Shown here: piece by piece, positions 38,050 to 40,906 of the stretch | Layout of the letters: every line of letters starts with the position of its first letter | Position numbering within the stretch: the first letter of the stretch is position 1 | Source: Mesoplasma photuris ATCC 49581 | GTDB lineage: Bacteria; Bacillota_I; Bacilli_A; Mycoplasmatales; Mycoplasmataceae | DNA length: 64,000 nt | Assembly: GCF_000702725.1 (NCBI RefSeq) | Contig: NZ_JNJI01000004.1 | Coordinates: 1 to 64,000, forward strand | Reading direction: 5' to 3' | Made by a program: the position numbers and the translations under genes | Notes under the pieces: model-generated | Seen by the model: only the letters and a program-made list of their open reading frames with translations | Databases searched by the model: none | What the model was told of the DNA's origin: nothing

Positions 38050-39603
38050 TTAACCGACTATGAAGGCGAGTGAAATAAAGTAGCCGACGAACAATAGTGA
38101 TAATACTCACATTACTATTCCAACCTCTTTTATTTTACCTGTTACTGTTTTAATGAATGTATAACCAATAATTCCAAAAGCAATACCATTAGCAATATTA
38201 TATGTAGTAACCATGAATAAGATTACTAAGAAAGCTGAAATTGCAATTTCTGGTTTTTTTCAATCAATAAGTTTTAATTCAGCAACCATCATCATTCCGA
38301 TATAAATACATGCTGCAGATGTAACACATGCAGGAATAGCTTTAAATATCGGATATAGAGCAATAGCAACTACGAATAATAATCCATTTACAATTGCAGC
38401 AACTCCTGTTCTTGCTCCTTGTTCAATACCAGCAGCCGATTCAACATAAACTCCCATTGGAGATGTTCCTAAGGCCGCACCAACAACTGTTGCACCTGAA
38501 TCAATAACTAATGCTTTATGTGAGATTTCATGATGTTGGTTTGTACGTTTATTTAATTGATGATTAAATGATGCTAAAGTACCTGTTGCATCAAAGAAAT
38601 TCATAAACATGAATACAAAAATCGAAATATACATTACTGGTTTATTTCAAATTTCTACATTAGTAAATTGTTTTCATGTATTTTCAATATTTCCTGTGAA
38701 ACCATCTAATTGATAGTCTCATCCTCAGTTTGGATCACGGAAATTAGTATTAGATAAAGCTCCACCTGCTTGTAATAAACTACTATCTTCGCTTACAGTG
38801 TTTGCCACAATTACAGCAACAATAAATCCGGCTAAAATACCAATAGCTGCAGACCCAGGAACTTTTTTAAAGTGTAAGAATAAAATTAAACCTAATGTTC
38901 CCATACCAATTAAAATTAACGGGTAATTTTCTTGTAATTTAGAAATTGCAGCAATCGGAACTCCTGAATCAGATTTCATTAATCATCCCATGTCAGTTAA
39001 TCCAACAGTTGCAATAAAAAATCCAATTCCAATTCCAAAGGCAATTACTATTTGTTTTGGAATAGCCTTAATAACCATTCTTCTTAGTGGTGTAATAGAA
39101 ACTATTACAAACAATATTGATGATAGCATAGTAGCGATTAACGCTCCTTCATATCCCAAACCACCAACATTAGCTAAGTTGAATACCATCATAGCATTCA
39201 TACCCATACTTGTTGATACAGCAACAGGAATATTTGCAAATAATCCCATCACAATTGATGCGATTGCTGATGCAATTGCTGTTGCTAAGAATACACCGAA
39301 TGAATCCATATTAGCAGCTGGATTTGTAGGATCAGTAACAGATTCTGCACTACTTAAAATTGCTGGGTTTACAGATAAAATGTAAATCAAAGCTAGGAAT
39401 GTTGCTAAACCACCTAAAATTTCTTTTTTTCAAATTGCACCAAGTGTGTCAAATTTGAAGTATCTCTCCATGGCAGCGATAGCTTTGTTATTGCTGAATA
39501 CAAAGTTCTTTGCATTTCTTTCAGCAGTCATTTGAGGCGTCTCGTTACCAAATTCTTCAAACAATAAATTTTCTTCAATAGAAGTATTTTGTTCTTTTTC
39601 CAT
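38050..39603 (-). CDS. NCS2-family purine permease (AzgA/PbuG type)
   Basis: A 517-residue transporter with about 13 membrane segments. It carries signatures of the adenine/guanine/hypoxanthine branch of NCS2: VSTSMGMNAMMVF near 130, and FMFMNFFDATGTLASF near 335, followed by DSGATVVGAALGTSP. It imports purine bases with protons. A purine riboswitch and terminator lie in its leader, which independently supports a purine substrate. The N-terminus of about 60 residues is cytosolic and acidic. The start at 39603 has AAAGG. Combined with apt it forms a purine salvage route. Confidence 0.93.
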
Positions 39604-39627: not shown

Positions 39628-39680
39628 AAAAAAACAGAAAAGAGCTTACTCGTGCGACTGAAAACACAAGAGCAAGCTCT
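39628..39680 (-). terminator. riboswitch-associated terminator
   Basis: An 11-bp stem AGAGCTTGCTC/GAGTAAGCTCT (one G-U pair) on the minus strand, with an 18-base loop, followed by TTTTCTGTTTTTTT. It begins seven bases after the aptamer's P1 and lies before the permease start: the likely expression platform. It may also end the dnaJ transcript. Confidence 0.8.
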
Positions 39681-39686
39681 ATTTAT

Positions 39687-39752
39687 AACTCATAATAGTA
39701 CATATGGTGCACTGTAGAGACTCCTGCCCATTATGCAGGATTATATAAGTTT
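39687..39752 (-). ncRNA. purine riboswitch aptamer, adenine-type, with shortened L3
   Basis: On the minus strand the three-way junction is complete: P1 AACTTATA/TATGAGTT, J1/2 TAATC, P2 CCTGC/GCAGG with loop ATAATGG, J2/3 GTCTCTAC, P3 AGTGCA/TGTACT, and J3/1 AUU. The base equal to position 74 is U, which in this class selects adenine over guanine. The L3 loop is CCATA, two bases shorter than the usual CCGUAAA, but keeps the two C that pair with the GG of L2. J2/3 keeps the canonical UCUAC, unlike the 2'-deoxyguanosine variants of M. florum. It precedes a purine permease gene. How ligand binding changes the terminator is not evident. Confidence 0.85.
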
Positions 39753-39773
39753 TCCTATTTAATTTATATTTTC

Positions 39774-39779
39774 ATTATA
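39774..39779 (-). promoter_or_regulatory. -10 box of the riboswitch-permease transcript
   Basis: TATAAT on the minus strand 22 bases before P1 of the aptamer, directly after the dnaJ stop. No -35 box is seen. Confidence 0.5.
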
Positions 39780-39787
39780 TAGGAAAA

Positions 39788-40906
39788 TTATTCTAAACTA
39801 TTTTTAATTTTAAAATCTGTTTCTAATTCAATTTCTTCTAACAATTTTCTCTCTTTTTTAGAAATAGATGTTGGTACTGAAATGTTTATTTCAACAATTA
39901 AATCCCCACGTCTAGAAGATCTACTGTCTTTGTATAAACCTTTATTTGGTATTCTGATTTTTTCTCCCGAATTTATACCTTTAGGAACTTTCATTTTTAC
40001 CAATCCTTCAAAAGTTTCGATTAAAATATCATTTCCTAAAATAGCATCTAAATAAGAAATATTATATTTCATTAACAAATCTGAAGATCCAGAAAGTGAG
40101 AATACTTTTGATTGAGCTAATTTAATATTTACATAAACATTACCTGGGTTACCACCAAGAGTTGATGCATGACCATAACCTTGTAAAACAAGTTGTTGAT
40201 TTGGTCTTAATCCATGAGGAATTGGTACATCGATTGTTTTTGATTTGATGTGTGTTCCGCGTCCATTACATGTAATACATTTATTTAAAATTTCTTTACC
40301 TAAACCTCTACATTTAGAACATTGTTGTTGTGATTGAAAACTTAATGGACCCATTTGTTGAGTAACATTAACAAAACCATGTCCTCCACATTGTGAACAA
40401 GTTTTTACATCGTTAGGATTTTTCGCTCCAATTCCATCACAAGTATCACATTTAGATAATAAATTTAGCTTAATTTCACGATCAACACCATAAATAAGTT
40501 CTTTAAAACTTAATGTCATTTCAATAACAACATCTTCACCATTGATATTTCTTTGTCTACCACGATTTCCACCAAACATATCACCAAACATATCACCAAA
40601 GAATGAATTTCCTTGTTGTCCACCCATGTTTGAAAAGAAATCTTCAAAGCCACCAAATCCACCAGCTCCTTGACCAGAACCTTCCATTCCTGCATGACCA
40701 AATTGATCATATCTAGAGCGTTTGTCAGCATCCATTAAAATACTTGCAGCTTCATTTATTTCTTTAAATTTTGTTTCTGCATCAGCTGCTTTATTTACAT
40801 CAGGGTGATACTTTTTTGCTAAGCTGCGGTATGCTTTTTTAATTTCTTGTTCTGTTGCAGTTTTAGAAACTCCTAAAACTTCATAATAGTCTCTCTTATT
40901 GCTCAT
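39788..40906 (-). CDS. dnaJ: chaperone DnaJ
   Basis: A 372-residue DnaJ that stimulates DnaK ATPase. The J domain has the HPD motif (33-35), then a Gly/Phe-rich part (75-115). The zinc domain has four Cys-x-x-Cys-x-Gly-x-Gly repeats ([32 protein letters not shown]). A C-terminal substrate domain follows. It is the last gene of the hrcA operon. A GCAA-loop hairpin before it may lower its expression relative to dnaK. Confidence 0.97.

Follow-up and report, generated by a model that had tools for sequence, protein, structure and literature searches.

A predicted adenine OFF riboswitch before an NCS2 permease gene of Mesoplasma photuris, in a lineage with small L3 loops

For the window considered here (the whole stretch of 64,000 nucleotides that was analysed, contig NZ_JNJI01000004.1 of Mesoplasma photuris ATCC 49581), a preliminary description had placed an adenine-type purine riboswitch before a permease gene of the NCS2 family. 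It had also pointed to a shortened loop L3, to an L2 loop shared with the 2'-deoxyguanosine (2'-dG) riboswitches of Mesoplasma florum, and to an unusual connection between aptamer and terminator. Which purine would such an RNA sense, and by what rearrangement could it control its gene?

The covariance-model search that had been proposed settles the class: cmscan over the whole window matches the purine riboswitch family RF00167 at 39768-39673 on the minus strand with 54.6 bits (E 1.5e-6), above the gathering score of 37 bits. The junction bases of the purine class and the U at the specificity position are present as claimed, on the minus strand, which the claim had left out. The aptamer is composed of the following parts:

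39744..39751, minus strand: P1 5' strand, AACUUAUA (covariance model, fold, alignment)
Between the P1 5' strand and P2, minus strand: J1/2, UAA
39722..39740, minus strand: P2, UCCUGC/GCAGGA, with loop L2 AUAAUGG (covarying pairs)
39714..39721, minus strand: J2/3, GUCUCUAC, the ligand-contact junction, with U47 at 39720 and U51 at 39716 (invariant in the U74 alignment)
39697..39713, minus strand: P3, AGUGCA/UGUACU, with the 5-nt loop L3 CCAUA (4 of 6 pairs covary)
39695, minus strand: U74, the specificity position, within J3/1 (AU)
39687..39694, minus strand: P1 3' strand, UAUGAGUU (covariance model, fold, alignment)

The U22/U47/U51/U74 core and the canonical junction are present, and the CC of L3 kisses the GG of L2, with these pairs found in 27 of 28 alignment cells. 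L3 measures 5 nt where the Rfam consensus has 7, the longer loop being a common trait that membership does not require, and P2 is one pair shorter than in the RF00167 consensus. Across 14 distinct U74 relatives the base pairs hold in 99.0% of cells, six pairs show double-sided changes, and the covariation score is 0.291 versus 0.112 for shuffled data (reached by none of 500 shuffles); P2 and P3 covary, and P1 and the L2-L3 kissing pairs are kept and hardly vary. The evidence for the aptamer is the covariance model and this conservation rather than energy, because by itself the aptamer folds with an unexceptional energy (z -1.4); with the terminator included, the energy is exceptional (z -4.7).

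The riboswitch sits between dnaJ (39788-40906) upstream and the permease gene (39603-38050) downstream, with these elements around and within it:

39774..39779, minus strand: TATAAT, probable -10 box, with a predicted transcription start at ~39767
39749..39754, minus strand: strand P, GAAAAC, the P1 5' edge plus the three preceding bases, putative antiterminator strand
39660..39665, minus strand: strand T, GUUUUC, in the upper stem and loop of the terminator, complement of strand P
39641..39680, minus strand: intrinsic terminator hairpin with an 11-bp lower and a 4-bp upper stem (found by folding)
To ~39627, minus strand: U tract after the terminator hairpin
38050..39603, minus strand: NCS2 permease of AZG type, 517 aa (code 4), presumed regulated gene (Pfam PF00860, E 2.1e-36)

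We infer a promoter from TATAAT (39779-39774) because it fits the TAWAAT box reported for M. florum (PMC7745072); a generic sigma-70 scan left it uncalled, as a simple terminator scan did the hairpin at 39641..39680. An inverted repeat, TTTTCCTAT ... ATAGGAAAA, spans 39787-39750 on the minus strand between dnaJ and the aptamer. It could mask strand P (GAAAA) where transcription reads through from dnaJ; in transcripts that start at the near promoter, the repeat is cut off. The nearest solved relatives of the permease are the adenine/guanine permeases AZG1/AZG2 (E 4.8e-40). With the RF00167 match, U74 and the PF00860 domain downstream, the original assignment of an adenine-type purine riboswitch before an NCS2 permease is supported.

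How ordinary this riboswitch is can be judged from its relatives. An RF00167 search of 60 genomes of the same family yields approximately 125 purine aptamers, with matches in 50 of the genomes. Of these loci, 118 could be parsed cleanly, and representative downstream genes were named with Pfam; the counts exclude L070, L093, L112, L115, L117, L119, L120 and L126, for which automatic parsing failed or gave a doubtful result. The DNA pattern of the aptamer matched eight named loci, and the permease protein used as a query against the genome contigs gave no match. M. photuris itself possesses four purine aptamers above the RF00167 cut-off, i.e. the one in the window (before NCS2), L002 before purA, L003 before guaA, and L004 before a gene for a BMP-type lipoprotein. 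The last of these (C2:344409-344503) has an altered core, with J2/3 GCUUCUAC, U47 replaced by C and an unusual P3/L3, and is a candidate for altered ligand specificity. Junction variants also occur at L124 before NCS2 (GCUUCUAU) and at L099 before guaB (GUCUAUAC).

The genes behind these aptamers divide in part by the base at position 74. All 20 cleanly parsed U74 loci precede either NCS2 (14, one of them decayed) or purA (6), and C74 loci precede guaB, guaA, a phosphoribosyltransferase, purE, lipoproteins and other NCS2 genes. Six purA genes under U74 compare with 0 of 98 under C74 (Fisher 1.2e-5, uncorrected for shared descent). This association fits adenine sensing, because purA serves AMP synthesis and NCS2 purine uptake; together with U74 it supports adenine as the predicted ligand. 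At the decayed locus, L067 (G012:C1:530300-533212), riboswitch and gene are falling apart together: the kissing C is lost, P2 is mismatched and the permease is broken into several frames.

Could the short loop nevertheless betray another ligand? That the pocket binds 2'-deoxyguanosine, 2'-deoxyadenosine or guanine instead would agree with the short L3 of the 2'-dG-I class and with the presence of 2'-dG switches in the Mesoplasma group. However, selectivity for 2'-dG needs a C at position 51 (C58 in 2'-dG-I numbering) (PMC8872408), and where 2'-dG-I combines C51 with C74 the window has U51 and U74. The short loop, moreover, is common to ordinary C74 aptamers. L3 measures 4 nt in nearly all cleanly parsed aptamers of genera g1, g3, g5, g7, g11 and g12 and in 28 of 34 in genus g9, with C74 and U74 alike; genus g8 is the exception, with 7-11 nt by parse, some of these lengths being uncertain. 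All short-L3 aptamers still score above the RF00167 cut-off. We therefore regard a different purine as extremely unlikely.

Because the 4-nt L3 dominates C74 and U74 aptamers in every genus but one, the short loop is best read as a feature of the lineage. The preliminary description was right that L3 is shorter than the class consensus, but 4 nt is the norm here, guanine-type aptamers included, and the 5-nt loop of the window is one longer than that of most relatives; the purA paralog L002 has L3 CCUA on a P3 otherwise identical to that of the window. The kinship to 2'-dG switches read from L2 AUAAUGG does not hold up, since AUANNGG is common to U74 and C74 aptamers generally and says nothing about the ligand. 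Judged by their distribution, the short L3 and L2 AUANNGG characterise the lineage and do not indicate that 2'-deoxyguanosine is sensed. For 2'-dG-I, too, a kissing L3 of 4 nt has been published, and guanine aptamers given 2'-dG-I-like loops lose more than 50-fold in guanine binding (PMC8872408); the natural occurrence of such loops in C74 aptamers suggests that this cost may be compensated or accepted in the lineage. One C74 aptamer, L087 (G053:C3:60902-60998), precedes the gene for the small chain of a ribonucleotide reductase and has J2/3 GUCUCCAC, U51 replaced by C and a 13-bp P:T match; it is likely a 2'-dG-type switch outside M. florum. The element of the window, in turn, is by its sequence an adenine-type purine riboswitch of the ordinary kind, in a mollicute lineage with small L3 loops.

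The claim that the link to the terminator is not the usual strand swap is correct in that the P1 3' strand is absent from the terminator, but GAAAAC at the P1 5' edge has a conserved complement there, GUUUUC. The linker between P1 and the terminator is likewise real, but measures 6 nt by parse rather than the 7 given earlier. An exact complement of GAAAAC or its variant follows within 48 nt in all 20 U74 loci, where shuffles predict 1.4, and at one register only, every other register being found in at most 8 U74 loci. Two loci have changed P strands (AAAAAC, AAAGAC) together with changed complements (GUUUUU, GUCUUU); because the exact complement at L018 is found in the 3' arm, this is not counted as clean covariation. 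L002 has a longer match, of 11 bp. Over 69 short-L3 loci the energy of a locus's own P:T pairing is -7.06 versus -4.88 (sd 0.21) for swapped partners, reached in 0 of 20000 swaps; these loci are related, so that all such P:T numbers overstate independence. Swapping partners among the U74 loci alone is not significant (1945 of 20000), because their P strands are nearly all alike. Nor does the window alone, where the P:T helix has only 6 bp, give a significant duplex energy between strand P and the region downstream (p 0.27); the significance comes from conservation across loci.

Folding of growing window transcripts is consistent with such a switch. At a length of 111 the P:T state (-21.2) is better than the P1 state (-19.8) by 1.4 kcal/mol, and from 117 onwards the terminator with intact P1 wins (-24.0 vs -21.2, then -35.0 vs -22.0). 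While P is paired with T, the 5' arm of the terminator can fold back (AGAG-CUUG-CUCU), a fold that several relatives share and that bridges the linker. A different antiterminator in an adenine OFF switch, formed by the terminator 5' arm with P2/J2-3 (GGGCAGG:CUUGCUC, CUCUA:UAGAG), is in fact the best predicted fold for intermediates of 103-114 nt (-22.7 kcal/mol; P:T -21.2, aptamer -19.8), with P:T at no more than 10% in equilibrium folding of 106-114 nt intermediates. But this complementarity is missing, by eye, from the terminators of relatives, nearly all of which contain GUUUUC; furthermore, the folding model ignores the kissing loop and the folding order, and P2, already folded, would have to open. 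We consider this alternative unlikely. Ligand binding would oppose it equally, and the OFF prediction holds with either antiterminator, because the ligand opposes both.

The P:T swap most likely corresponds to the 5'-strand antiterminator type published for the 2'-dG switch of M. florum, in which P pairs with T as antiterminator and the ligand locks P1, so that the terminator forms and the gene is turned OFF (PMC5838219, PMC12268651); by this likeness the window would hold an adenine OFF switch. When adenine is scarce, an antiterminator would form between GAAAAC (39754-39749) and GUUUUC (39665-39660) as the terminator region emerges; it would compete with P1, and RNA polymerase would continue. 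With adenine bound and paired to U74, P1 would be locked and strand P unavailable, so that the terminator hairpin could form and transcription would end before the permease; the kinetics of this competition are likewise predicted.

The characterised adenine switches of the purine class (pbuE, add) are ON switches, a logic cited in PMC2258182, which would favour an ON switch like that of Bacillus subtilis pbuE, with the permease as an exporter. Yet the absence of overlap between terminator and P1 led us to reject a pbuE-like design: the two coexist in the best full-length fold, the terminator being compatible with the folded aptamer. P:T, the one conserved alternative helix identified, is incompatible with P1 and not with the terminator-free state, and the same control stands before purA, where feedback repression of AMP synthesis would be expected. 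An ON switch thus appears very unlikely. We consider it probable, with good confidence, that the element is an RF00167-class adenine riboswitch acting in cis, and that it turns transcription of the AZG-type NCS2 purine permease OFF via the P:T antiterminator.

With somewhat less confidence, we favour a lineage-wide reading: Entomoplasma/Mesoplasma-type mollicutes may use adenine OFF riboswitches with a miniature L3 for purA and AZG-type permeases, and the 5'-strand antiterminator may be shared by adenine, guanine and 2'-dG versions, the specificity having changed while the switching module stayed. This suggests one switching design carrying several purine specificities in one bacterial lineage, and means that a short L3 can no longer be taken to signal an unusual ligand specificity. 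Only two points may be relevant to specialists: the adenine OFF logic, which would set this element apart from the well-studied adenine ON switches if it is confirmed, and the shared switching module. The remainder is routine annotation.

Among known systems, the pbuE and add adenine riboswitches share with the window the three-way junction, the U22/U47/U51/U74 core and L2-L3 kissing via two G-C pairs, but the window has an L3 of 5 rather than 7 nt, a P2 of 6 rather than 7 bp and a predicted OFF instead of ON response. The 2'-dG-I riboswitch of M. florum, located before ribonucleotide reductase, resembles it in the short L3 (PMC5838219, PMC12268651, PMC8872408) and in the OFF antiterminator made of the P1 5' strand and a terminator strand, which in the window is predicted from complementarity; it differs in its core (C/C, against U51/U74 in the window) and in the gene, a permease in the window. 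Closest are the G010 ortholog before an NCS2 permease and the paralog L002 of the same genome, which share U74, the junction and GAAAAC:GUUUUC, and differ from the window in their 4-nt L3 (CCAA and CCUA).
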